Assembly (NCBI GenBank): GCA_024695065.1
Contig: JAILIX010000024.1
Location: 1 to 37,616, forward strand
Source of the DNA: Fretibacterium sp.
GTDB lineage: Bacteria; Synergistota; Synergistia; Synergistales; Aminobacteriaceae
Length of the DNA: 37,616 nucleotides
Direction: 5' to 3'
The notes under the pieces were generated by a model that had not been told where the DNA came from, made no database searches, and saw only the letters and a list, made by a program, of their open reading frames with translations. The translations under genes and the position numbers were made by a program. Position 1 is the first letter of the stretch. The number at the start of each line of letters is the position of its first letter. Of this stretch, positions 20,904 to 32,958 are shown piece by piece.

Positions 20904-22154
20904 TTAACCCTCCTTCTTCAGCTCCCGGGCCGCCTCAGACAGCGCGTTGAGGAAATCGTCGATATCCTGAAGCGTGTTGAAGTACCCCGGGGAGACCCGC
21001 AGCGCCCCCTGAGGGAAGGTGCCGAGACTCCGGTGGGCAGAGGGCGCGCAGTGCAGACCGGGACGTGTCTCAAACCCCATCAGGGAGAGCCGGTTCGCCA
21101 GAATGGCATTGTCCAGTCCCCTGATGTTCACGGGAAAAACGGGGAGACGGCCGTCGATCTCATGCATTCCGGCAAGCTCCATGCCTTCTGTTGCCAGCAG
21201 TCCCTCCAGCAGATGACTGCCCAGCGCGCGCTCCCGGAGCAGAATCTTCTCCATGCCCTCCTCCTCCAGCCAGGTCAGGGCAGCGTTGAGCCCTGTAATG
21301 CCCGGCAGGTTGGGCGTCCCGGACTCAAAACGGTCCGGCAGGTCATCCGGCTGGAACTCCAGGTGCGAGTAACTGCCCGTTCCGCCGGTGATGAGGGGAG
21401 TCACCTGCGCGGCAAACTCCGGGTTCCAGACAATCCCGCCTGTCCCCTGAGGCCCCAGCAGGGACTTGTGCCCCGTGAAACAGAGGGCCGCCAGACCAAG
21501 GGATTTGGCGCTCAGCGGCAGAACTCCGGCCGTCTGGGCCGTGTCCAGAACCAGAGGCACCCCGGCCTTTCCGCACATCCCGGCAATCTCCTCCACCGGC
21601 TGTATGGTGCCGCAGACGTTGCTGGCGTGGGCCATCACCATCAGGTCAAAGCGCTCCGAGGCCAGCGTGTCCTGAAGACTCTTCAGGTCCATGAGTCCGT
21701 CGGTCCCGGAGGGGATGAGGGTGAGCCGGATAACTCCGTCCCGCTCCAGCGTCCTCAGCGGGCGCATGACGGCATTGTGTTCCATGGAAGAGGTCAGCAC
21801 ACTCATTCCCTGGCGCAGATAGCCTTTCAGGACAATGTTCAGAGCCTCCGTGATGTTGGAGCAGAAGGTGACGTTCAGGGGATTTCCGCATTCGCTGCTT
21901 CCGGATTGAAGCTCAGGGGCCCGCAAAGCGGGTTTCCCAGCGGGAAAACACCCCCTGAAACCCCCATACCCGCCCAGCAGGGTGGATAAACGCACGCGGC
22001 AGTCCAGAACCGCGTTCAGCGTCTTCAGATCCCGGTTTGAGGATGTCCCCCGGGCAAGGTTTGCCCCGCCGGAGGTGAGAAAAGCCGTCATGGCCACCGG
22101 AACCGTTTCAGGCTTGGGCCAGCTTGTTGCAGCATTGTTCAGATAGACAGGCAT
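20904..22154 (-). CDS. Class V aminotransferase, cysteine desulfurase-like, with in-frame repeat insertion
   Basis: The 416-residue PLP enzyme starts with YLNNAATSWPKPE and has DTAQTAG and the PLP-lysine motif FTGHKSLLGPQG. The late GLHCAPSAHRSLGTFPQGALR holds the likely catalytic Cys. These features fit the class V cysteine desulfurase family (sulfur mobilisation from cysteine). Residues about 63-88 (YGGFRGCFPAGKPALRAPEL and following) are out of character for the family. They are encoded by a palindromic repeat inserted in frame, just before the conserved NPLNVTFCSNITEALN. Without them the length would be about 390, the usual size. It begins the chain with the thioesterase and trkAH genes. 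Confidence 0.85.
   Translation of the reverse strand: MPVYLNNAATSWPKPETVPVAMTAFLTSGGANLARGTSSNRDLKTLNAVLDCRVRLSTLLGGYGGFRGCFPAGKPALRAPELQSGSSECGNPLNVTFCSNITEALNIVLKGYLRQGMSVLTSSMEHNAVMRPLRTLERDGVIRLTLIPSGTDGLMDLKSLQDTLASERFDLMVMAHASNVCGTIQPVEEIAGMCGKAGVPLVLDTAQTAGVLPLSAKSLGLAALCFTGHKSLLGPQGTGGIVWNPEFAAQVTPLITGGTGSYSHLEFQPDDLPDRFESGTPNLPGITGLNAALTWLEEEGMEKILLRERALGSHLLEGLLATEGMELAGMHEIDGRLPVFPVNIRGLDNAILANRLSLMGFETRPGLHCAPSAHRSLGTFPQGALRVSPGYFNTLQDIDDFLNALSEAARELKKEG
21891..21968. repeat. Composite palindromic repeat inside the cysteine desulfurase-like gene
   Basis: The + strand shows the head GGATTGAAGCTCAGGGG (21903-21919), one hairpin unit CCCGCAAAGCGGG, a linker TTTCCCAGCGGGAAAAC, and the tail ACCCCCTGAAACCCCC. 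About 78 bases (26 codons) are in frame with the gene, which lies on the opposite strand. It is the simplest complete copy in the window. Confidence 0.85.
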
Positions 22155-22172
22155 TCCAAAAAACTCCTTCCA

Positions 22173-22378
22173 TCGGATTAAAGCCGGATTGAAGCCGGGC
22201 CGGATTAAAGCTCAGGGGGAGAAAGACCCCCTGAAACCCCCGGCGGCGGATTGAAGCTCAGGGGGAGAAACCCCCCGAACCCCCTGCCGGCCCGCAGAGC
22301 GGGCTTCCGGATTGAAGCTCAGGGGGAAACCCCCCGAACCCCCCGGTCGGCCCACAAAGTGGGTTTCCTGCCGGATCA
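22173..22378. repeat. Intergenic palindromic repeat cluster upstream of dnaA
   Basis: The 459-base gap between the cysteine desulfurase-like gene and dnaA holds three full heads (22202-22219, 22248-22265, 22309-22326) and two partial heads near 22175 and 22186. Each full head runs into a C-rich arm (CCCCCTGAAACCCCC or CCCCCCGAACCCCC), giving a G-rich/C-rich hairpin. Two 13-base hairpin units, CCCGCAGAGCGGG and CCCACAAAGTGGG, follow. I see no gene here; a 93-codon minus-strand frame is only repeat translation. Beyond 22378 the region changes sharply to AT-rich origin DNA. Confidence 0.85.
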
Positions 22379-22485
22379 GGGACCCCGTCCCGCGTACCCA
22401 TTCTTCTTTTTCCCATGATATCATTAAACTGTCTCCTGTGTCGCCGGGGGGCTGTGGAAAAAGCTCTTTCTGACAAAAAAATAAA

Positions 22486-22582
22486 TTATCCACAAAGTGA
22501 GAACAAAAAAATTGTGGATAAGTGTATAATTAGGGTGAATTGTCCTGTGTGTTATGGACAGAAGAAATTTTGATGTGGATAA
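22486..22582 (+). promoter_or_regulatory. DnaA boxes and promoter region upstream of dnaA
   Basis: Three perfect 9-base DnaA boxes are present: TTATCCACA at 22486-22494 and TGTGGATAA at 22513-22521 and 22574-22582. Between them lies a perfect -10 TATAAT (22525-22530), four bases from a box, with no clear -35. DnaA bound here would probably control its own gene. The AT-rich tracts (22474-22490 and 22504-22512) suggest the upstream half of a two-part origin. Confidence 0.75.
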
Positions 22583-22613
22583 CTGACAGGACAAAAAGCT
22601 GGGAGTGAACAAG

Positions 22614-23957
22614 TTGCGCCAAAAGGCAGAGGACCTGAAGAAAACCTGGCAGGACATCATCAACAGGGCGGACCTGCCCCAGGAAACGTTTTCCCTGTGG
22701 CTTGAAAGCTGTATGCCGGTGGGGATTGAGGACGATGAGCTTGTGGTGGAGATCCCCAACCCCTTTGTGCAGGAGTATGTCACCAATCACTTTCTTGCGG
22801 AGCTGAACCGGTCAGCAGAGGCGGGCGGCACAGTCCGCAAAATACGCCTGAAGGCCGGCGAATCCCAGGGGGGAGCAGCAAAGAAACAGGAGTGGGAGGC
22901 CCGGGCGAAGGAAGCGTCCAGAGCCGCTGCGGAGCCGGAGAAAAAAAACCCCTACTCCAGCTACACCTTTGAGAGCTTTGTGGTGGGCAAATCCAACCGG
23001 ATGGCCCACGCGGCCAGTCTGGCCGTGGCTGAAACGCCGGGCAAGGCTTATAATCCGCTTTTCATCTGGGGCGGCGTCGGACTGGGGAAAACCCACCTTA
23101 TGCACGCAATCTGCAACTACGCCCTCAGGCAGAACAAGAACCTGCGGACCCTTTATCTCAGTGCGGAGCAGTTTCTGAATGAGTTCATCAAGGCCATCGC
23201 CTCCTCGCGGACGGCTCAGTTCAAGGAGCGCTACCGGAATCTGGACATTCTTCTCATCGACGACATCCAGTTTCTCGGCAGCAAGGAGCAGAGCCAGGAG
23301 GAATTTTTTCACACCTTCAACTCCCTGCATGACGAAGGCCGGCAGGTGGTCATCTGCTCAGACCGTCAGCCTTCAGAACTGAAGGGCATTGAGGAGCGCC
23401 TCACCAGCCGGTTCAGCTGGGGCCTGGTGGCGGACATCCAGCCGCCGGACCTTGAGACGCGGATTGCTATTCTGCAGAAGAAGGCGGCCCTGAGGCAGTA
23501 TGCCATCCCGGATGAGGTTATTCACTTTCTGGCCCAGCACATCCCCAGCAACATCCGGGAGCTGGAGGGAGCCCTGAACCGTGTTATCGCGTCCGCTGAG
23601 CTGATGAGCGAAGAGATCACCATTGAGCGGGTATCCGTCTGGCTTAAGGATATCCTCCGTATGGACATGAAGGGCCCTGTCACCATTGAGGCCATTAAAA
23701 ACGCAGTGGCGGAGTGTTATGGCGTCAGCATGGAGGACCTCGCCAGCTCAAAGCGCACGGCAGAACTGGCTCTGGCCCGTCAGGTGGCCATGTTCCTGTG
23801 CAGCGAGATGGTGGAGACAAGCCTTCAGCAGATTGCCAACGCCTTCCGGAAGAAGGATCACACCACCGTCATCCACGCCAAGAGAAAGATTGGGGATCTT
23901 GTTAAAACGGATGCGGAGGTCAGACGGATTGTGGATAACCTGAAGAATAAGTTATGA
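22614..23957 (+). CDS. dnaA: Chromosomal replication initiator DnaA
   Basis: DnaA binds origin boxes and opens the duplex. The 447-residue protein has domain I (about 1-75) and a short variable linker with SRAAAEPEKK. The AAA+ domain starts at YTFESFVVGKSNRMAHAAS. Walker A is GGVGLGKTH (about 153-161), Walker B LLIDDIQFL (about 213-221), and sensor 1 is near ICSDRQPSEL. Domain IV holds the DNA-binding signature KKDHTTVIHA. GGGAG lies eight bases before the TTG at 22614; the GTG at 22605 would add three residues but its spacing is poor. DnaA boxes lie on both sides of the gene. Confidence 0.97.
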   Translation: MRQKAEDLKKTWQDIINRADLPQETFSLWLESCMPVGIEDDELVVEIPNPFVQEYVTNHFLAELNRSAEAGGTVRKIRLKAGESQGGAAKKQEWEARAKEASRAAAEPEKKNPYSSYTFESFVVGKSNRMAHAASLAVAETPGKAYNPLFIWGGVGLGKTHLMHAICNYALRQNKNLRTLYLSAEQFLNEFIKAIASSRTAQFKERYRNLDILLIDDIQFLGSKEQSQEEFFHTFNSLHDEGRQVVICSDRQPSELKGIEERLTSRFSWGLVADIQPPDLETRIAILQKKAALRQYAIPDEVIHFLAQHIPSNIRELEGALNRVIASAELMSEEITIERVSVWLKDILRMDMKGPVTIEAIKNAVAECYGVSMEDLASSKRTAELALARQVAMFLCSEMVETSLQQIANAFRKKDHTTVIHAKRKIGDLVKTDAEVRRIVDNLKNKL

Positions 23958-24229
23958 AAAACGCGGGGGACAGTCTGTGGATAACTCTGAACTCCTCACA
24001 GCGAAGGACCGTCTCCCGCAATGTTGTTCCCTGATATCCACGCCGTTTCCACAGGAGACCCACCGGCTTTCCACAGCAGCCGGTTTAAGTGTTTCTGAGG
24101 GGTTTCCCGGGTTATCCACAGAGTTATCCGGCTCTACAGTTACTATTGCTTTTTATAAAAAAAAGATAACAGAAAAAGCTGTCCACAGTGCACAGGTCCG
24201 TGGGCAGGATCACAGGGAGGACTGACCAC
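23958..24229. other. Probable replication origin (oriC) between dnaA and dnaN
   Basis: This 272-base gap has perfect DnaA boxes TGTGGATAA at 23976-23984 and TTATCCACA at 24112-24120. Another box, at 23930-23938, overlaps the end of dnaA. Several near-matches occur (TTTCCACAG around 24049 and 24069, TTATCCGGC at 24124). An AT-rich stretch at 24139-24178, TATTGCTTTTTATAAAAAAA and the bases after it, is a likely duplex-unwinding element. Together with boxes upstream of dnaA this looks like a bipartite origin. No palindromic repeat is present inside this gap. Confidence 0.75.
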
Positions 24230-25462
24230 ATGAAACTTGAGCTTGACCGCTCGGAATTTCTGAAAGCATGGCAGATGGCCGAACGTTCCAGCGGAACAAA
24301 GAGCACTCTCAGCGCCGTGAATGGCATTCTGGTCACCGTGGGGGACGAAACGCTCCTTGAGGCGACGGACTTTAAGACAGCCCTGCGCTGCACCGCCTCC
24401 GGCGTCAGAACCCTCGTCCCGGGGCAGGCGATTCTTCCGGTTCGTCTTCTGGGGGAGTTTCTGAAGAGAATTCCAACAGAGACCGCAACCCTGGAGGTCG
24501 ATGGGGAAAAAGGCGTCCTCTTTGCAGGCAGAAACCGCACACGCTTCACCACAGCTCCCGTGTCGGAGTTCCCGAAAATTCCCCGAAGCGACAGCGCCGC
24601 GGAGCTCTGTACCCTTATCGCGGCCGATCTGGCGCGGGTTGTTACGGAAGGCTCCATCGCCAGCTCAACGCCGGCGGAATTCCCCAAGTATCTTGGAGCC
24701 TGCCTTTTCAGTGTGAAGGACAATCTCCTGAAGGTGGTTTCCACGGACGGCAAGCGTCTTTCCCTTTCTCAGTGCCCCTGCGGGACAAAGGCGGACGAGG
24801 AGGTCCTGCTGCCGGTTCCCGCCCTGAAGGAACTGAACCGCCTTCTGACGGCAGGGGACCCGGAGTCCCGGGTTCAGGTCCTGAACGATGGGTCAACAGT
24901 CTGGTTCCGGCTGGATGTCGGGGAGAAGGATTCCCCCTCCATGCTGGAGTTCTCCATCCGGCGCATTGAGTCCTCCTTCCCGAACTATGAAAAGATCCTC
25001 ACCTCCGACGTCCTCACAACGCTGAGGATCCCCCGGGAGGAACTGCTGCCCGCGCTGGAAAGGGTGGACATCATCTCTCACAACACCGTCTCTCACCTTG
25101 TGGTGATGCGGCTCTCGCCAGGCGGGGACCTGAAGATGACCACCCGGGCGCCGGATCTCGGAACGGCCCTTGAAGTGCTGGACGCCGTCATTGAAGGCAA
25201 TCCGCTTCGCGTGGGCTTCAACGTCGGCTACCTTCAGGATGGCCTCCGGGCTCTGGGGAGCGGTGAGGTTCTGATTGAGTTCAACGGCGAGGAAGGCCAG
25301 ACCCGCATTGTCCAGGAGGGCGCCGGGAATTTTCTCTATATGCTCATGCCCGCCCGCCTGAGCCCCCAGGACGTCATGGAGGATGACTCTGACTCACAAA
25401 GTGAGCTTCCTGCCGGCCCACAGAGTGAGCTTCCTGACGAAGAGCCGGCCCCCGGCGAGTAG
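24230..25462 (+). CDS. dnaN: DNA polymerase III sliding clamp (beta) with a repeat-derived tail
   Basis: The 410-residue product has three beta-clamp domains. Recognisable parts include ILPVRLLGEFLKRIP, SVKDNLLKVVSTDGKRLS and FSIRRIESSFPNYEKIL. The clamp encircles DNA and tethers polymerase. The ATG at 24230 has AGGGAGG at good spacing. Normal clamps end near the MPxRL motif; here YMLMPARL is followed by about 30 more acidic residues (SPQDVMEDDSDSQSELPAGP and onward). Part of that tail is encoded by two hairpin repeats. The tail begins near the peptide-binding face, so it could affect partner binding; that is inference. Confidence 0.96.
   Translation: MKLELDRSEFLKAWQMAERSSGTKSTLSAVNGILVTVGDETLLEATDFKTALRCTASGVRTLVPGQAILPVRLLGEFLKRIPTETATLEVDGEKGVLFAGRNRTRFTTAPVSEFPKIPRSDSAAELCTLIAADLARVVTEGSIASSTPAEFPKYLGACLFSVKDNLLKVVSTDGKRLSLSQCPCGTKADEEVLLPVPALKELNRLLTAGDPESRVQVLNDGSTVWFRLDVGEKDSPSMLEFSIRRIESSFPNYEKILTSDVLTTLRIPREELLPALERVDIISHNTVSHLVVMRLSPGGDLKMTTRAPDLGTALEVLDAVIEGNPLRVGFNVGYLQDGLRALGSGEVLIEFNGEEGQTRIVQEGAGNFLYMLMPARLSPQDVMEDDSDSQSELPAGPQSELPDEEPAPGE
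25393..25430. repeat. Two hairpin units in the 3' end of dnaN
   Basis: CTCACAAAGTGAG (25393-25405) is a perfect palindrome in which both arms differ from the common CCCAC/GTGGG. CCCACAGAGTGAG (25418-25430) has one arm altered. They start 25 bases apart and encode SQSELPAGPQSELP in frame. Confidence 0.75.
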
Positions 25463-25508
25463 CGTTCCCGGGCCGCCGGACAGACAGCCGAAACCACAGG
25501 GCACAGGC

Positions 25509-26762
25509 GTGAGGTTTGAGTTCAGCGTCCTCAGGGATTTTCGCAGCCTGAGGGAAGCACGGCCCGAGTGGGCCCCCGGGCTGAACCTTATTCTGGGGCC
25601 CAACGGCTCCGGCAAGACGAACCTGCTGGAGTCCCTGAATATTCTTGCCGGATGGGGGACCTTTCAGGGCCGCACCTCCGGGGCGGTGTCCTGGGATTCC
25701 GAAAAGGGCCGGGCCCTGCTGGGAGCACGGGTGAACGGTGAAGAGGAACATGAGCTTCAGGTTCAGATCTCCGGGCGCATGACGCCCCGGCTGGACGGAA
25801 AACACGCCACCTTCACGGACCTGCGGCTTGCCGTGCCGTCCATTACCTTTCTGCCTGCCGACATCAACCTGGTGGAAGGCTCTCCTGCTGTCCGCCGCCT
25901 CTTTCTGGACCGGCTCTGTGCCCTCTGTTCCGTTCCCTATGCCCGCCGCCTGGCGGAGTTTCGCCAGATATCCCGTCACCGTACCGCTCTTTTGAGACAG
26001 GGCAGGCCCGTTCACGGGACCACACTGCCCTTTGCCCGCCTTGGAGGATGGATTATGGAGACCCGGCGGCGCGCGGTGTCCCTCCTGATGACGCTCCCAC
26101 AGAGTGGGGTTCCCAGCGGCCCACACAGTGGGGTTCCTGCCGGCCCACAGAGCGGGCCTTCCGGATTGAAGCTCAGGGGGCCCGCAGAGCGGGTTTCCCA
26201 GCGACCCACAGAGTGGGCTTCCCAGCGACCCGCAGAGCGGGTTTCCCAGCGAGAACCCCCCCCCCTGAAATCCCCGGCGGCCCACGAAGTGGGCTTCCCG
26301 GCGGCCCACACAGCGGGCTCCCTGCCGGCCCACACAGTGGGCTCCCTGCCGGCCTTTTCCTTCACCATGACGCCGGAGCTGGAGGGGAGCGGCGCCGAAA
26401 GCCTCCTCCGGGGCCTTGAGGAGACGGCTGAAAAGGAGCGGTATGCCCTTCGCCCCCTTGTGGGCCCCAACCGCGATGACCTTGTCCTCATCTCCATGGG
26501 ACGCCCGGCAGCGGAATCCCTGAGCCGGGGTCAGAAGCGGCGTCTGGTGCTGTCCCTCATCCTGAGGGCGGGGCGGCTGATTGAGCTTCAGCTGCGGAGA
26601 AAGCCCGTTCTGTTCTTTGACGATCTGGCCGCAGAACTGGATGCCGACGCCAGACATGAGTCAGGCGCCGCGCTCCTTGCCACGGGCTGGCAGATTTTCG
26701 TCACAGGTACAGAGGATCCCTTTGGAGGTCTGGATTCCTCGACGCTCTGTCTCCCGCTTTAA
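25509..26762 (+). CDS. recF: RecF recombination protein with about 88 inserted residues
   Basis: RecF is an SMC-like ATPase that helps load RecA at gaps. The 417-residue product has Walker A GPNGSGKTN at about 34-42, the signature LSRGQKRR, and Walker B VLFFDDLAAELD. The GTG start at 25509 gives the usual N-terminus (VRFEFSVLRDFRSL); upstream in-frame residues are repeat translation. Residues about 195-282 are encoded by nine hairpin repeats. They sit between WIMETRRRAVSLLM and FTMTPELEG, in the arm (domain II). Without them the length is about 330, short but near normal. The ATPase motifs are intact, so the protein may still work. Confidence 0.93.
   Translation: MRFEFSVLRDFRSLREARPEWAPGLNLILGPNGSGKTNLLESLNILAGWGTFQGRTSGAVSWDSEKGRALLGARVNGEEEHELQVQISGRMTPRLDGKHATFTDLRLAVPSITFLPADINLVEGSPAVRRLFLDRLCALCSVPYARRLAEFRQISRHRTALLRQGRPVHGTTLPFARLGGWIMETRRRAVSLLMTLPQSGVPSGPHSGVPAGPQSGPSGLKLRGPAERVSQRPTEWASQRPAERVSQREPPPLKSPAAHEVGFPAAHTAGSLPAHTVGSLPAFSFTMTPELEGSGAESLLRGLEETAEKERYALRPLVGPNRDDLVLISMGRPAAESLSRGQKRRLVLSLILRAGRLIELQLRRKPVLFFDDLAAELDADARHESGAALLATGWQIFVTGTEDPFGGLDSSTLCLPL
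26096..26352. repeat. Nine-unit palindromic array inside recF
   Basis: Nine 13-base hairpins run through 257 bases. The third is followed by the head GGATTGAAGCTCAGGGGG (26163-26180). Units 4 to 6 repeat exactly every 24 bases (hairpin plus about 11 bases such as TTTCCCAGCGA). A C-rich tail, ACCCCCCCCCCTGAAATCCCC, lies near 26250-26275 before units 7 to 9. The encoded eight-residue periods (for example PTEWASQR, PAERVSQR) never meet a stop. Confidence 0.9.
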
Positions 26763-28648
26763 ATTCCTTTTTTCGTACGAAAGCTGCTGCGGGGGGACGG
26801 CCCGGACTCAGGGTACAGCTTTGCCGCCGCGTCCATGCGCCCGGCTTTTTTCAGTGTCTCCAGCACCAAACGGCGGTTCCGGGGCATACGGTGCTGGAGA
26901 AGAGCCCGCTGTGCCCGGCGTTCAGCCTCCGTGCGGGGTGAGTACACCGGCTCCCCTGTGAAGGGGTCCTGTCCTGTGTAATACATACAGCTTGAAAGAC
27001 TGCCCGGCGTGGGAATGAAATCCTGAGCCTGCTCCGGGCAGAAGGCCAGCTCCGCCGCGAACAGCGCCAGATCAATGGCCTCCTCTGTGCCGCAGCCGGG
27101 GTGCGACGTCATGAAGTACGGAACGAGATACTGCCGCTTTCCCAGCTTTCGGTTGCACTTTTCGTACAGGGTCATGAAACGCCGGTACTGTCCGATATCT
27201 CCCTTCCTCATCCGGCGCAGAACGGCGGGTGAGGCGTGCTCAGGGGCGACCTTGAGCTGGCCGCTGATGTGATGCTCGCACAGTTCCTCCAGAAAAGCCC
27301 GGCCCCGTGCCCCGTCCAGCAGCAGGTAGTCGTACCTCAGCCCGGAACGGACAAACACCTTCTTCACCCCGGGCACCGCCCGGCACTCCCGCAGCAGATT
27401 CAGATAATCTTCGTGGCTGGTGTCCAGGTTCCGGCAGGGCTCCGGGAACAGGCATTCCCGCCCCCGGCAGACCCCATGTTCCAGTTGTTTTTTGCAGGAA
27501 GGATGGCGGAAGTTCGCCGTGGGCCCCCCCACGTCGTGAATGTAGCCCTTGAAATCCGGAAGCTGCGTCAGTTCCCGGACCTCCCGCAGGATGGACCTGT
27601 GGCTCCTGGCCTGGATGACCCGGCCCTGATGGGCGTGAATGGCGCAGAAGGAGCAACTTCCAAAGCACCCCCGATGGCTGGTGACGCTGAACTTCACCTC
27701 ATCCAGCGCCGGAACGCCCCCCGCCGGATCATACATGGGGTGCCAGCGGCGTGTGAAGGGCTGATCATAAATTTCGTCCATCTCCGCCTCTGAAAGGGGC
27801 CAGGCCGGGGGAAGCTGCACGGCCATCCGGCCCTTCTCATAGCGCTGAAGGAGTGTCCGGCCCCTCACAGCGTCCTGCTCAAGGGACATCAGGCGGAAGG
27901 CCTCGGCAAACTGCCTTTTGTCCCGTGCAACGGCCTCCCAGGAAGGGAGCTCCACAAAGGGGCTCTCAGGCTCCTCTCCCGGACGGGCCGCGTAGCATGT
28001 CCCCCGCACGTCCCGAATATCCCCCACGGGGCGTCCCTCTGCAAGGGCGGCCGCAACCTCCAGGAGGGCCCGCTCGCCCATGCCGTACACCAGCAGGTCA
28101 GCCTGGCTGTCCAGCAGGATTGAACGCCGCAGCGAATCCGACCAGTAGTCGTAGTGCGCAAAGCGCCGGAGGCTCGCCTCAATACCCCCGATGATAATGG
28201 GAACGTCCCCCATGACCTGCCTCACCCGCTGGGCGTAGACAATGGTGGCCCGGTCAGGCCTCAGGCCCCTCCGTCCTCCGGGAGAGTAGGCATCCCTGCC
28301 CCGTGTTTTCTTCCCTGCTGTGAGCTTGCCCAGCATGGAATCCAGGTTTCCGGCCCCCACCAGAACCCCCAGCCGGGGGCGGCCCATGCTCAGAAAGGGT
28401 TCGGACGTTAAATCGCTCCCACCGCGTGGCTGGCGCCAGTCGGGCTGGGCCAGGATGCCCACCCGATAGCCCTTTGCTTCCAGCAGGCGGCAGAGCAGCG
28501 CCGCGGCAAAGGAGGGATGATCTACGTAGGCATCGCCGCTCACGAAGAGAAAATCCAGCTCCTTCCAGCCTCGGGCGTTCATATCCGCCCGTGACACGGG
28601 CAGAAAGCCGCGCGGACTCTGTCTGTCTGCGCTGTTGTTTTCCCTCAT
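26759..28648 (-). CDS. YgiQ family radical SAM protein
   Basis: The 629-residue protein matches the YgiQ family of unknown function. The N-terminus has the family's DFLFVSGDAYVDHPSFAAALL. The radical SAM cluster motif CFGSCSFC is at about 320, inside SHRGCFGSCSFCAIHAHQGR, and C-terminal YFMTSHPGCGTEEAIDLALF follows. An extra PSCKKQ and CRGRECLFPEPC cysteine group, seen in relatives, may bind a second cluster. The ATG has GGAGGTGAAAGG upstream. It converges on recF with a four-base overlap of stop regions. What it modifies is not known. Confidence 0.92.
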   Translation of the reverse strand: MRENNSADRQSPRGFLPVSRADMNARGWKELDFLFVSGDAYVDHPSFAAALLCRLLEAKGYRVGILAQPDWRQPRGGSDLTSEPFLSMGRPRLGVLVGAGNLDSMLGKLTAGKKTRGRDAYSPGGRRGLRPDRATIVYAQRVRQVMGDVPIIIGGIEASLRRFAHYDYWSDSLRRSILLDSQADLLVYGMGERALLEVAAALAEGRPVGDIRDVRGTCYAARPGEEPESPFVELPSWEAVARDKRQFAEAFRLMSLEQDAVRGRTLLQRYEKGRMAVQLPPAWPLSEAEMDEIYDQPFTRRWHPMYDPAGGVPALDEVKFSVTSHRGCFGSCSFCAIHAHQGRVIQARSHRSILREVRELTQLPDFKGYIHDVGGPTANFRHPSCKKQLEHGVCRGRECLFPEPCRNLDTSHEDYLNLLRECRAVPGVKKVFVRSGLRYDYLLLDGARGRAFLEELCEHHISGQLKVAPEHASPAVLRRMRKGDIGQYRRFMTLYEKCNRKLGKRQYLVPYFMTSHPGCGTEEAIDLALFAAELAFCPEQAQDFIPTPGSLSSCMYYTGQDPFTGEPVYSPRTEAERRAQRALLQHRMPRNRRLVLETLKKAGRMDAAAKLYPESGPSPRSSFRTKKGI

Positions 28649-28845
28649 CCTTTCACCTCCCCGTCCGGGGATTCAGCGGCAATCCCCGGGAAAACCCTGA
28701 TTCAGTTAAAATTTTAGCATTGAAGCCGGAATCCGGAGCGGATCTCCCAAAAAGGGCTCCTGCAGACATGCGATATAATAGGCAGACAAGGCAGACAGGG
28801 TCAGGAGACCCTGTCGGGTATCCTGTTTCCACACACGGGTCGCAG

Positions 28846-29247
28846 GGAAACCAGCCGCCGGGGGTTTCAGGGGGGTTTTTCCACGCTGGGAAGCCCGCCG
28901 CTGGGGGGTTTCAGGGGGTCCTTTCCCCCTGAGCTTCAATCCGGCGGGCCCCCTGAGCTTCAATCCGAAACCGAGTTTCAATCCGAAATTTTCAGGAAGC
29001 AGGTTGGGGTTGACTCACCCCTGCCCAGCCGGCCGGGAAGCCCGCTCCGCGGGCCGCCGGGAGTTTTCAGGGGGGCTCTCGCTGGGAAACCCGCTCTGCG
29101 GGTCGCCGGGAAGCCCACTATGTGGGCCGCTGGGAAGCCCGCTTTGCGGGTCGCCGGGAAACCCACTTTGTGGGCCCCCTGAGCTTTAATCCGAAACCCC
29201 GCTTTGTGGGGCGGCAGGAACCCCACTTTGTGGGAGGAGGGCTTGAT
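28846..29247. repeat. Large intergenic palindromic repeat cluster upstream of the sbcC-like gene
   Basis: The 602 bases between the YgiQ gene and the sbcC-like start are mostly repeats in reverse orientation to those at dnaA. Heads read CCCCCTGAGCTTCAATCC at 28925-28942 and 28949-28966, with a T variant at 29175-29192. Seven hairpins follow between about 29040 and 29240, four of them spaced 24 bases apart. Bases 28649-28845 hold no gene I can see; a lone TATAAT at 28774-28779 has no -35. The last unit lies just before the ribosome site GGAGGAGGG of the next gene. Confidence 0.85.
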
Positions 29248-29250
29248 TTA

Positions 29251-32200
29251 ATGCGTATTCTTCAGGTGAAGTTCACACGGTCTCAGGAGAGCACGGAGGC
29301 ATTTCATTCCGCTTCCGGCAGGAACCCCGCTTTGCGGGCCGCCGGGAAGCCCACTATGTGGGTGGGAAATGCGCGGACTCTTATTCCTGCGGAATGGTCT
29401 CTGGAGTTTGACTCACAGCAGGATGAACGGGGCCGGCCGCTTGGGGTTGACCAGCCCCCTGCGGCAGGAACCCCACTCTGTGGGGCGGCGCTTCCGTCCT
29501 GGCTGCCGGATCTCCTTGGGGCGGCGCTTTACGGCTCCGCATGGCCGGGGAAGTGGAACGAACCTGGGACAGCGGAACTCCTCATTGAGGTCCCTGCTGA
29601 AAATGCCGGCCAGTCCCCTGTGCGGCTCTGTGTCCGGCGTGAGCTCTGTCAGAAAGTAAAGGACCAGAAGCCTGATCCGGGAAAGGTCCCCCCCCATGGT
29701 CCGGCTGTGATTCTTTCCGGCGGGGAGCCTGTTGATGTGAATACCCTCCCCGGGGCGGCAGGAACCCCGCTCTGTGGGATTTCAGCTGAGGCGTTTCTGC
29801 GCGGCACGGTCCTGATGCAGCGGGACTTTGCGGCGTTTCTGCGTCTGCCGACGGAGGCCGGCAGGAAGCCCACTTTGTGGGCCGCCGGGAAGCCCGCTTT
29901 GCGGGAACGACGGGCCACCCCACATAGTGGGTTTCCTGCCGCTCTGGAGCGCCTGACAGGACAGGGACTGTGGGGGGATACCTCTGCACTGTTCTGCCGG
30001 CACTATCTCGCACGGGCCGCCGGAAAGCCGACTTCATGGGCCGCCGGGAAGCCCACTGTGTGGGGCGGTTTCAATCCGGAGGCCGCCCACATGGAAGCGG
30101 AAGGAGACCCACTGTGTGGGCTGGCCCGCACTCTGGACGAGCTGGGGGCGATGGAGATTCTTCTGGAGCGGCGGACCGAAGAAGAGCGCCGTCAGGAGGC
30201 CCTGGGGCGCAGTGAGGCAGAACTCCGGGAGCTGGACCGTCGCCGTGGAGACTGGGAGAGGGACAAGGCCCTGTTTGCTCCGCTTCAGCAGCGGCTGGAA
30301 AAGGGCCGCGCCGTGCTGGAACTGGGGGATGATTACGCAAACCTGCGGGGGCTGCGCCAGAGGCAGGAGCAGAACCGTCTGAACCAGATCAGCGTGAGGG
30401 AGGGTATCACCTCCGCCCGGGCCGGGCTGCAGAACGCTGAGGACACCGTCACCCTGCTGGAGAGCGAGTTCCGGGATAAACTGGCTGCTCAGAAGCGTCT
30501 GTCGGAGACGGCCCGGACGGTGCAGGACCTGGACCGTCAGATTGAGGAGGTTCAGGATGAAACAGAATCCGTTCGCGGGGATTTTGTGAGGACGGAGGGA
30601 CAGCTGCGGGAGAAATCGGACCGGATTGACAGCGATCAGGTGCATCTGGAGAAGGTGAGCCTGTCGCTGCGGGAGGCCCGGAAGTTCCTTCAGGCGCACG
30701 CCATTGACGAGAAGCTCACCACAGGTCTTCCGGCGATACAGCGGGGTTTTGATCTGTTCACGCAGGCGGAGAAGCGGCGGACCTCCCTGAAAAATGAGTA
30801 TTCCGCCGCGCTGCAGGCCAGACAGCAGGCTCAGGAGGGCCTTGACGACCGTCAGGCGATGTTTTCCGGCGTCAGCTACCGCCTCACCGCTGCTGAGAAG
30901 GATCGGGACCGGGCGAAAGAGATTCTTGACTCCACGCTGAAGGGCAGGAATCTGTCCGCATGGCGCGAGGACTGTATCCGGCACCGCCGGAATATTGAGG
31001 CCATGGACACTCTGGCACACCAGTTTTTGGAGGAGCAGGAGCTTCAGAAGCGGCTGAAGCTTCTCCGGGAATCGCGCCTGAAGATGCAGCAGGAAAGCCG
31101 GTCGCTGAACATCCGGGACGTGGAGCAGGTCAGCAGGATAAGCGAGCTTGAAGCCAAAATGCAGAAACTGGAGAAGCGGGTGACGCTGCTCCATCGCATC
31201 GAGGATCTGGATGCCCTCCGGGAACTGCTTCAGGACGGTGTCCCCTGCCCGCTCTGCGGGGCTGCCACCCACCCCTACGTCTCCGAAGGGGCGGGGCTTG
31301 TGCCCGATCCGGAGGAGGTGTCCCTTCAGCTCAGCGAGACGCAGAGGGCCCTGGATAAGCTGCGGAACGAGCTGAACACCCGCCAGACCCGGGCGGGACT
31401 GCTGACCGACGAGATATCCACGGCCGGTCAGGGCGAGGAGGAACTGCTGCGGGAGCTTCACATTCTGGGAGACAAAATTGCGTGTACATCGTCAGAACTG
31501 GGGCTGAAGTTCGGTGTGGGAGTGCCTCCGCTGGAGGAGCTGAACGGGGTGCGCCAGAGGGAACGGGACAGGCTTAAACGGGCTGAAGGCGTGGTGGAGG
31601 CTGTCGAATCCGCGGAATCCGCCCTGCGCGCGGCGGAGGACGAGCTGGAGCGTCTGCGGGAGAGCCGTGAGGAACTGGCCCGTTACCACCAGGAGGCAAT
31701 GTTCCGGCTGCAGTCTCAGAGGGCTGAGGAGGAGCGTCTGGAGGGAGAAACCCGGAGTCAGGAGGAATCCCTCAACAGCCTGCGGCGGGAGCTGGTGTCG
31801 CAGCTCTCTCTGTATGGATACAAGAGCCTGCCCGACGAGAACCCTGGCTCAGTCATTCAGGCCCTGGCGGAACGCGAATCCGTCTGGCGGGAGCAGGAGC
31901 GCCGCAAAGGGGAGCTGGAACGGGAACTGGCCGTTGCCCAGGCTGCCATGACGGCGCTGAAGAAGGAACAGAATGCGCTGCGTCTGGAGCGGGAGGGGCT
32001 GAGCAGCCGCCTCCGCACCGTTGAGGCGGAGAGGGACAGCCTCAGGCAGCAGCGGATTGCCCTCTTTGGGAGCCGGGATCCCCTTGTGGAAATAAACCGT
32101 ATGAAGCGGGATGTGGAGGAACTCAGAACCCAGCTTGAAACCCGGCGTCAGGAGAAGTCCGACAACGCGGACCGGCTTCAGAGGCTGATGGAAAACCTGC

Positions 32201-32958
32201 ATGATCTGGAGACGGCGATGGCGACGGGGCGTGACCAGCTCCAGAAGGATGAGATTGCCTTCAGCAAAAAACTTCTGAACGCCGGCTTCAAAAACGAGGA
32301 CGACTATCTCTCCGCCTCGCTGTCGGAGGATGAGCGGACGTCGCTTCAGGAACGGCTGAAGAAGCTGACTCAGGCGGATCTTGACCTGACCGCGGCCCGG
32401 GAGAACGCCCGGGCGCTTCAGCTGGATCTTCAGGCGGGGCAGGAAGGGCGGGTGTCTCTGGGGGACCGGACAATCTTTCTGAGACGTCTTCTGGAGCTGA
32501 ACCGGCGGGCGGGTGAGCTTTTCCTCTCCCTCCGGGGCGACACGGAGGCGGAACGGCTGTACCATGATTTTGCGGAGCGGCTTTTCTCCCGCCCCCGTCT
32601 GCGGGATCTGGGCCTTGGGACAGGGGACGAGGACACAAGGGCGCAGCTTCTGGAGCTTGTCTTTGGCGCCATTCTCGACAACGCCAATGCCCGTCTCAGC
32701 GCCGGCGGGGAGACCCTGCGCCTGAAGCGGGGCGAGGGTTCTCTGGAACTTGTGTCCGGAGACGGTTCCCCTCTCGCTGCCGGGGCAGCGGACCTTTCCC
32801 TGGCGGCCCTGGCCCTGGCCTGGGGACTGGCGGAACTCTTCCTGCCGGAGGGCAGCCCCCGCCTGGCGGAACCGGAGGAGGGGGCGGAGGAACACGTCCG
32901 GGCCTGCGCGCAGGCTCTGCGTCATGAGGGTGAGGAGGTCCTGATCCTTGAACACTGA
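29251..32958 (+). CDS. SbcC-like coiled-coil protein lacking ATPase motifs, with repeat insertions
   Basis: The 1235-residue protein resembles SbcC/Rad50. It starts MRILQVKFTR, has long heptad coiled coils (about 300-640 and 740-1120) and a central zinc-hook motif CPLCG. It also has SbcC-like pieces such as ALYG and VLMQRDFAAFLRLP. The ATPase head is degraded. No Walker A is found where GPTGAGKT is expected; instead repeat-encoded AGTPLCGAALPSW occurs. The C-terminal head has DLSLAALALAWGLAELF but neither the LSGGE signature nor the FIDEG Walker B. Five repeat groups lie in residues about 22-291. The ATG has GGAGGAGGG. No sbcD is adjacent. It may be a pseudogene still open, or a structural protein. 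Confidence 0.7.
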   Translation: MRILQVKFTRSQESTEAFHSASGRNPALRAAGKPTMWVGNARTLIPAEWSLEFDSQQDERGRPLGVDQPPAAGTPLCGAALPSWLPDLLGAALYGSAWPGKWNEPGTAELLIEVPAENAGQSPVRLCVRRELCQKVKDQKPDPGKVPPHGPAVILSGGEPVDVNTLPGAAGTPLCGISAEAFLRGTVLMQRDFAAFLRLPTEAGRKPTLWAAGKPALRERRATPHSGFPAALERLTGQGLWGDTSALFCRHYLARAAGKPTSWAAGKPTVWGGFNPEAAHMEAEGDPLCGLARTLDELGAMEILLERRTEEERRQEALGRSEAELRELDRRRGDWERDKALFAPLQQRLEKGRAVLELGDDYANLRGLRQRQEQNRLNQISVREGITSARAGLQNAEDTVTLLESEFRDKLAAQKRLSETARTVQDLDRQIEEVQDETESVRGDFVRTEGQLREKSDRIDSDQVHLEKVSLSLREARKFLQAHAIDEKLTTGLPAIQRGFDLFTQAEKRRTSLKNEYSAALQARQQAQEGLDDRQAMFSGVSYRLTAAEKDRDRAKEILDSTLKGRNLSAWREDCIRHRRNIEAMDTLAHQFLEEQELQKRLKLLRESRLKMQQESRSLNIRDVEQVSRISELEAKMQKLEKRVTLLHRIEDLDALRELLQDGVPCPLCGAATHPYVSEGAGLVPDPEEVSLQLSETQRALDKLRNELNTRQTRAGLLTDEISTAGQGEEELLRELHILGDKIACTSSELGLKFGVGVPPLEELNGVRQRERDRLKRAEGVVEAVESAESALRAAEDELERLRESREELARYHQEAMFRLQSQRAEEERLEGETRSQEESLNSLRRELVSQLSLYGYKSLPDENPGSVIQALAERESVWREQERRKGELERELAVAQAAMTALKKEQNALRLEREGLSSRLRTVEAERDSLRQQRIALFGSRDPLVEINRMKRDVEELRTQLETRRQEKSDNADRLQRLMENLHDLETAMATGRDQLQKDEIAFSKKLLNAGFKNEDDYLSASLSEDERTSLQERLKKLTQADLDLTAARENARALQLDLQAGQEGRVSLGDRTIFLRRLLELNRRAGELFLSLRGDTEAERLYHDFAERLFSRPRLRDLGLGTGDEDTRAQLLELVFGAILDNANARLSAGGETLRLKRGEGSLELVSGDGSPLAAGAADLSLAALALAWGLAELFLPEGSPRLAEPEEGAEEHVRACAQALRHEGEEVLILEH
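29316..30123. repeat. Scattered palindromic units inside the 5' part of the sbcC-like gene
   Basis: Five groups are seen: 29316-29362 (two hairpins), 29463-29490 (one), 29754-29780 (one), 29857-29940 (three, the last in opposite orientation) and 30016-30123 (two clear, others decayed). They are in at least two frames of the gene. One frame gives KPTLWAAGKPAL, the other gives AGTPLCGA or GDPLCGLA. A head remnant, TTTCAATCC, lies near 30069. Different decay levels suggest insertions of different ages. Confidence 0.85.

Follow-up and report, generated by a model that had tools for sequence, protein, structure and literature searches.

Palindromic repeats in the dnaA-recF region

The DNA analysed here (the window) is a 37,616-nt contig, JAILIX010000024.1, of a Fretibacterium sp. 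from the Synergistota, listed as contig C63 of a metagenome-assembled genome (MAG) of 1.98 Mb, 133 contigs and 91.49% completeness. Around positions 21891 to 30123 lie a cysteine desulfurase-like gene, dnaA, dnaN, recF and a further gene (29251-32958) that is called SbcC-like on the basis of a weak SbcC match (E 1.1e-7), and short palindromes lie in four of these genes (all but dnaA) and in two of the gaps between them. The palindromes are probably very short interspersed elements of one family, which increase in number within the chromosome and comprise a unit A similar to a repetitive extragenic palindromic (REP) hairpin and a unit B that is a separate element of 24 bp. Hairpins of the form CCCRC-N3-5-GYGGG, to which a first-pass annotation of this DNA had drawn attention, amount to 30 in the window, 28 of them inside 21891-30123 and one each upstream and downstream of that stretch, where 200 dinucleotide-preserving shuffles gave a mean of 0.49 and a maximum of three. 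The composite order also described there, with a head GGATTGAAGCTCAGGGGG followed by hairpins, a tail CCCCCTGAAACCCCC and further hairpins, recurs in the window. The idea of a shared element was supported, with the refinements that the repeats resolve into the two units A and B and are not tied to the replication origin (oriC).

Anatomy of units A and B

Unit A can be written as GGATTGAAGCTCAGGGGG-loop-CCCCCTGAAACCCCC, with a length of about 40 nt in this genus and mostly of 60-70 nt in related genera. In an alignment of 48 copies from four species, chosen out of 70 pattern matches, 96.9% of the cells in its stem (TCAGGGGG/CCCCCTGA) were paired. The loops found in related genera measure 30-40 nt in 19 of the 25 copies listed and are shorter in six, and the long A copies commonly abut one another head to tail. 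An inner hairpin of these long copies showed 18 cells changed on both sides, which none of 500 shuffles reached; the corresponding helix was nevertheless set aside as weakly supported, since a one-column slide gave a near-equal score (0.128 vs 0.131) and RNAalifold does not predict it. A variant of the A head (e.g. at L124:47) starts with GGATTGAAAC, a beginning reminiscent of the 3′ end of many clustered regularly interspaced short palindromic repeats (CRISPR).

Unit B is 24 nt long and made up of CCCRCNNAGYGGGNTTCC and a linker of six bases. Its 13-nt hairpin (a 5-bp stem with a 3-nt loop) carries a tail of 11 nt, and stacked copies follow each other head to tail with a period of 24 nt. It occurs alone, in tandem, before the A head, after the A tail and inside the A loop. 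The stem of B is kept complementary: among 44 rows, selected from 74 flank-anchored ones by removing duplicates and those that do not resemble B, pairing holds for 94.6% of the stem cells, with two-sided changes in 14 cells, and the covariation score of 0.183 was reached by 0/500 shuffles and by no slid version of the stem (maximum 0.021). The number of stem pairs with a two-sided change was 2, a value reached by 33 of the 500 shuffles. As the B copies are related to each other, this covariation counts as support and not as a probability. Changes in both arms are also seen in the first of the two degenerate B units at dnaN (CTCAC/GTGAG). Compared with shuffles, the folding z values were -1.98 for B, -2.09 for a 39-nt A, -2.92 for A with B and -1.10 for a 109-nt piece of the recF array. 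When 144 consensus variants of tandem B were translated, 120 were open in all six frames and the 24 with an ATA loop contained a stop; by a rough estimate from base composition, such openness has a chance of some tens of per cent and is not by itself rare.

Insertion into genes

By alignment, A and B are present in some species at places where the orthologous sites of others are empty. One of the size differences is precisely 24 bp, and the units stack in tandem and nest. One loop of a flavin adenine dinucleotide (FAD) oxidoreductase is particularly informative because, across four sister species, it is either empty or longer by 24 bp or by 75 bp. The site is empty in genomes G063 and G064 (LSRYRLK-x-GVLEKN), whereas the gene of G065 reads LSRHRLK[TGKKPALR]VGVLEKN and is exactly 24 bp longer; in the Fretibacterium genome of the window, an A element lies two codons upstream, where 26 residues replace one (net 75 bp). 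The G065 insert is a B with an intact stem, missed by the exact pattern because 4 of its 24 positions differ from the consensus, and no target duplication is evident at its site. A B of 24 bp thus entered this loop in one species and an A composite of 75 bp in the other.

A larger insert was found in RecF, for which 75 of the 81 genomes of the taxonomic family have a match. Among the matches listed, the alignment pieces of relatives stop at or before residue 209 of the query and restart at or after residue 277, and the insert occupies 75 alignment columns (75 codons) in comparison with the sister species. Outside the phylum, a segment of this length was absent from 16/16 RecF proteins, retained from 18 hits after two had been set aside for being incomplete or of unusual length. 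In a structural model of the 417 residues (mean predicted local distance difference test score, pLDDT, 70.9; predicted template modelling score 0.71), whose best matches in the PDB are RecF proteins, residues 200-278 have a pLDDT below 50, and the insert is accordingly predicted to be disordered.

In the same line, comparison with G065 revealed 21 additional codons in the desulfurase and a 42-bp A element (14 codons) in a gamma-glutamyltranspeptidase, a comparison from which the row of G010 was left out because of its wrong frame. In the SbcC-like gene, four gap blocks against G065 coincide with B units, the block at 29858-29942 showing three B units as 24 gapped codons. These alignments show in-frame insertion in RecF, the cysteine desulfurase, the transpeptidase and the SbcC-like gene. 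Of the four insertions that the first-pass annotation had placed in frame, those of RecF, the desulfurase and the SbcC-like gene therefore hold, but that of dnaN was not shown, because the tails of sister genes vary and those of G063 and G065 are of similar length. Single B copies were also compared with solved structures. Aligned with 2gb3 and 1b5o, an aminotransferase of G063 shows a gap of eight residues at B and, nearby, another of one residue; the alignment of HisF of G064 with 4evz and 1ka9 likewise has a gap of eight residues at B. The two copies lie in opposite orientations and in different frames. For another gene with B (L173) the structure search returned no match, and for an ATP-binding cassette (ABC) ATPase gene the structure alignment ended short of the insert. 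Since these genes were picked for open frames spanning the element, they speak for tolerance and not for the share of insertions that keep the frame.

A copies are often intergenic and B copies often lie within open frames, in genomes whose genes are only partly annotated. In G063:C47, an A copy is located immediately behind a Shine-Dalgarno sequence, and the corresponding site of G065 is empty; the RecF and L119 pairs of that comparison were poorly placed and left aside. A Shine-Dalgarno sequence with a start codon and an open frame on the opposite strand was found on the head side of 21/112 A copies and on the tail side of 8/112 (within 45 nt, frame of at least 50 codons, internal array copies included), the figures for other genera being 7/24 and 1/24. 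Such a bias may reflect either a target preference or a leader function. At seven loci of genera g13-g15 (L241, L242, L244, L246, L249, L250 and L251), the head of a long A ends a few bases from the Shine-Dalgarno sequence and start codon of a frame on the opposite strand.

Table 1. Repeat units of the window and the genes that hold or adjoin them
Feature	Positions	Strand	Remarks
Cysteine desulfurase family gene	20904..22154	-	Top NCBIfam match TIGR01977, slightly under cut-off
A element with B-type hairpin in loop	21903..21966	+	Within the cysteine desulfurase-like gene; 21 extra codons vs G065
Intergenic array, desulfurase/dnaA gap	22202..22374	+	A 22202-22241, A variant 22248-22285, B 22291-22308, A variant 22309-22344, B 22351-22374
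Two degenerate B units, 3′ tail of dnaN	25393..25440	+	Insertion unproven
recF	25509..26762	+	TIGR00611 above cut-off
In-frame recF array	26096..26352	+	B, B, partial B, A (26163-26275, three B inside), three B
A elements and heads 5′ of SbcC-like gene	28860..28966	-	Intact A 28904-28942
B array and A composite	29030..29234	-	Head 29175-29192; precedes the point where the conserved SbcC-like protein starts
SbcC-like gene	29251..32958	+	Matches NCBIfam SbcC weakly (E 1.1e-7; 30.2 bits vs cut-off 750)
B units in SbcC-like frame	29315..30064		29315-29362, 29461-29484, 29755-29778, 29858-29905, 29919-29942, 30041-30064

Copy number and distribution

The genome contains 91 exact copies of the hairpin followed by NTTCC on 17 contigs, with 23 on the window contig and 68 on 16 others, together with 52 copies of the head at up to two mismatches. 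The initial impression that the hairpins were confined to the 8-kb stretch is thus nearly correct for the window and incorrect for the genome. When copies were merged at 500 bp, 31 clusters resulted genome-wide, three of them in the 8-kb stretch, and contigs C11 and C26 likewise hold at least three; as several clusters lie near contig ends, their true number may be higher. For a given 8.2-kb stretch, 0.13 clusters are expected and the probability of three or more is 0.0003. A focus of repeats at oriC was not established on these grounds, given that 948 of 5000 random throws contained some 8.3-kb stretch with at least three clusters. The clusters are mildly clumped along the genome.

Across the 81 genomes of the family, the hairpin followed by TTCC occurred 91 times in this genome and 7, 15 and 5 times in the three others of the genus, and as a single match in 13 of the remaining 77, where a reversed control pattern gave 9 matches as against 0 in the genus. 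Heads in the four genomes of the genus numbered 52, 25, 14 and 18, with none for the reversed control. The family was taken to be Synergistaceae, since the single Synergistaceae record among 80 DnaA hits, at 57% identity, is the closest relative with a name. A covariance model built from the 48 A elements matched 12/185 genomes of the phylum (E ≤ 0.001), every one in this family: at least 35, 31, 33 and 28 matches in the four genomes of the genus, and at least 2-14 in each of eight genomes from genera g12-g15, these counts being lower bounds because up to 35 candidates were scored per genome. Viral contigs, searched with the exact pattern in a set that did not cover the phage collection, gave no match for the repeats, nor did plasmids searched by blastn with the recF array. 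A scan of five sources (the window, L125, L155, L159 and L160) with Rfam 15 gave no family above the gathering score except transfer RNA (tRNA); the window has a tRNA gene at 1871-1944 on the minus strand (RF00005).

Sequences flanking the A copies are occasionally repeated. Long direct repeats (68, 61-65, 26, 18 and 17 bp) border a few of 76 copies, but their interpretation as target duplications was dropped, most of them being tandem flank duplications or neighbouring repeats. At L155:1298-1653 (G065:C27), four A elements succeed one another at intervals of about 105 bp, and behind every one of them lies the same flank of 61-65 bp; at L131:3668-3990 (G000:C100) an intergenic A has a 68-bp direct repeat on each side. 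Imperfect short duplicates, with matches of 17 and 26 bp, surround A at L160:1200-1300 (G063:C77) and L159:1300-1360 (G063:C35). The A copies at L125:2373 and L125:2790 (G000:C36), at a distance of 417 bp, have an identical flank of 25 bases in front of them, which suggests a local duplication.

How the elements may spread

The pattern of presence and absence between species suggests that A and B have moved. This agrees with the mobile or self-spreading element proposed by the first-pass annotation: the searches for head and hairpin found further copies in the genome and in three others of the genus, the alignments with orthologues revealed inserted segments in RecF, the desulfurase, the transpeptidase, the SbcC-like gene and the oxidoreductase, and the RecF proteins from outside the phylum carry no such segment. 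The copies would spread as DNA units with defined ends, folded single strands of which are probably recognised by a recombinase acting in trans and not belonging to the Y1 (RAYT/IS200) class, RAYT being the REP-associated tyrosine transposase. After insertion, arrays might grow by slippage or tandem growth; slippage alone would be insufficient, because units are found singly at unrelated sites. As B measures 24 bp (8 codons) and is mostly free of stops, an insertion into coding sequence lengthens the protein by eight residues and can persist in a tolerant loop, and the spread of either unit would need no benefit to the host. A bolder and rather doubtful version holds that B is moved precisely by a class of enzyme unlinked to known REPs and has been selected as 'coding-safe' (a length divisible by three, no stops in six frames), which would enable it to colonise coding DNA. 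To our knowledge, B would be among the shortest mobile units known.

Several observations weigh against a family of multiplying elements. No mobilising enzyme was found in a search limited to the Y1 family, and no consistent target duplication was seen. Around 25 isolated B copies, junction identity was only slightly higher than at random places (1.36 vs 0.80, a difference reached in 4/500 trials). Covariation is lacking in the A stem across the 48 copies, and a 68-nt A folds no better than shuffles (z of -0.32 and -0.02). Not every alignment is clean either: a second block near the C-terminus of the transpeptidase, made of B units, has a net length of 66 bp, the B at 29755-29778 of the SbcC-like gene corresponds to no gap against G065, LpxC of the Fretibacterium genome shows a net gain of four residues at B that is not clean, and the B of the G065 oxidoreductase is the diverged copy described above. 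Moreover, as most in-gene cases were found via open frames, their being in frame is partly a matter of ascertainment. Finally, the location of A copies in larger tandem duplications and the copies common to several species imply that the spread is partly ordinary duplication and inheritance.

In an explanation without mobility, the repeats would be born locally and expand there as replication slips, switches template at G/C runs or duplicates sequence in tandem in the ordinary way. Tandem arrays of 24 nt, the C runs that isolated B copies tend to precede, the A elements in units of about 105 bp (G065:C27) and the one beside a 68-bp direct repeat (G000:C100) are all consistent with it; it is nonetheless quite unlikely in view of single copies of defined length in unrelated genes, in both orientations and with no A or B motif within 40 nt. 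There is likewise little to recommend the view that the hairpins were retained for a role in RNA, as leader hairpins or as regulators, and only drifted into genes: the Shine-Dalgarno and start bias on the A head side, the covariation of the B stem and the copies common to several species would fit, but Rfam gave only a tRNA in its five sources, the 68-nt A folds unremarkably, and copies vary between close species and occupy several reading frames.

Alternatively, the elements might be REPs or REPINs (REP doublets forming hairpins) moved by a RAYT transposase of the Y1 type that has since been lost from the species or is missing in the assemblies. In size, hairpin form and mosaic arrangement A is indeed REP-like, the MAG of the window is incomplete, and two of the 12 A-bearing genomes (G066 and G072) do have Y1 genes. 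This origin is unlikely all the same, since Y1_Tnp matches were absent from 4/4 genomes of the genus (one listed as 100% and one as 98% complete, in assemblies that are incomplete) and from 10/12 A-bearing genomes, Y1 genes are present in 22/69 family genomes without A, and the GTAG tag appears in none of the 48 A rows and 44 B rows. As for an artefact of assembly or binning, the MAG is fragmented and several clusters are near contig ends; the chance of it is minimal, however, as host genes are syntenic with those of the sisters, the elements turn up again in genomes assembled separately and do not break the frame.

Comparison with known elements

The multiplying family of A and B units touches on several systems already described. 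Intragenic REPs of the GTAG/CGTC type are, according to the portions of PMC3733652 consulted, short palindromes in open reading frames of several species, occurring single, paired or clustered; the clusters encode 43 to 82 residues, certain genes are hit twice, many of the genes act in replication or repair, and CGTC REPs lack a dedicated transposase, their mover being left there as an open question. The likeness, as far as those portions go, lies in short in-gene palindromes that are single or clustered. As a rule, however, A and B lack a GTAG or CGTC tag: a search anywhere in the aligned units and on either strand, covering the units and not the flanks outside them, found GTAG in 0/48 and CGTC in 2/48 rows of A (alignment A1), neither in the 44 rows of B (alignment A2; 0/44 each), and GTAG in 1/19 and CGTC in 2/19 rows of alignment A4. 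Moreover, B joins a 13-nt hairpin to an 11-nt tail and stacks at 24 nt. PMC3733652 nowhere contains the word 'Synergist'.

Rickettsia palindromic elements (RPEs) are described in parts of PMC10969869 and PMC3733652 as palindromes of about 150 bp that enter unrelated genes in frame. They resemble the present units, on that description, in adding peptide segments to unrelated genes in frame, here RecF, the desulfurase, the transpeptidase, the oxidoreductase, the SbcC-like gene, HisF and the aminotransferase. Compared by description and not by sequence, they differ from B, which has 24 bp and occurs in either orientation and in more than one frame. Small dispersed repeats, SDR5 among them, are reportedly modules of 21-27 nt. 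The SDR5 of Nostoc is a tiny module inserted precisely between bases 3 and 4 of the highly iterated palindrome HIP1, according to an excerpt of PMC4390886. Tiny modules and precise insertion are thus shared with it, to the extent that the excerpt describes them, but a split HIP1 site was found in 0/25 flanks of isolated B copies. In REPIN/RAYT systems, as presented in part of PMC3116915, REPs are primarily extragenic, RAYT-associated and dispersed palindromes regarded as miniature mobile DNA. This last trait, within what that part covers, brings them close to A and B, from which they differ in that the four genomes of the genus have no Y1 gene match. With regard to miniature inverted-repeat transposable elements (MITEs), the stems of A and B are not at both unit ends, and there is no consistent target-site duplication.

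Altogether, B is short enough for synthesis and testing, and the family raises testable questions about the mover of REP-like elements without a RAYT and about evolution toward harmlessness in coding DNA. The family also matters for annotation, as additional peptide segments derived from repeats are present in recF, hisF and other core genes. The A/B family was not recognised in the best matches, by title and abstract, of the open-licence literature on Synergistetes/Synergistota or in-frame palindromes. In comparison with what has been published, then, the insertion of REPs and RPEs into genes was already known, and the A/B family and its exact step of 24 letters appear, from this survey, to be new.

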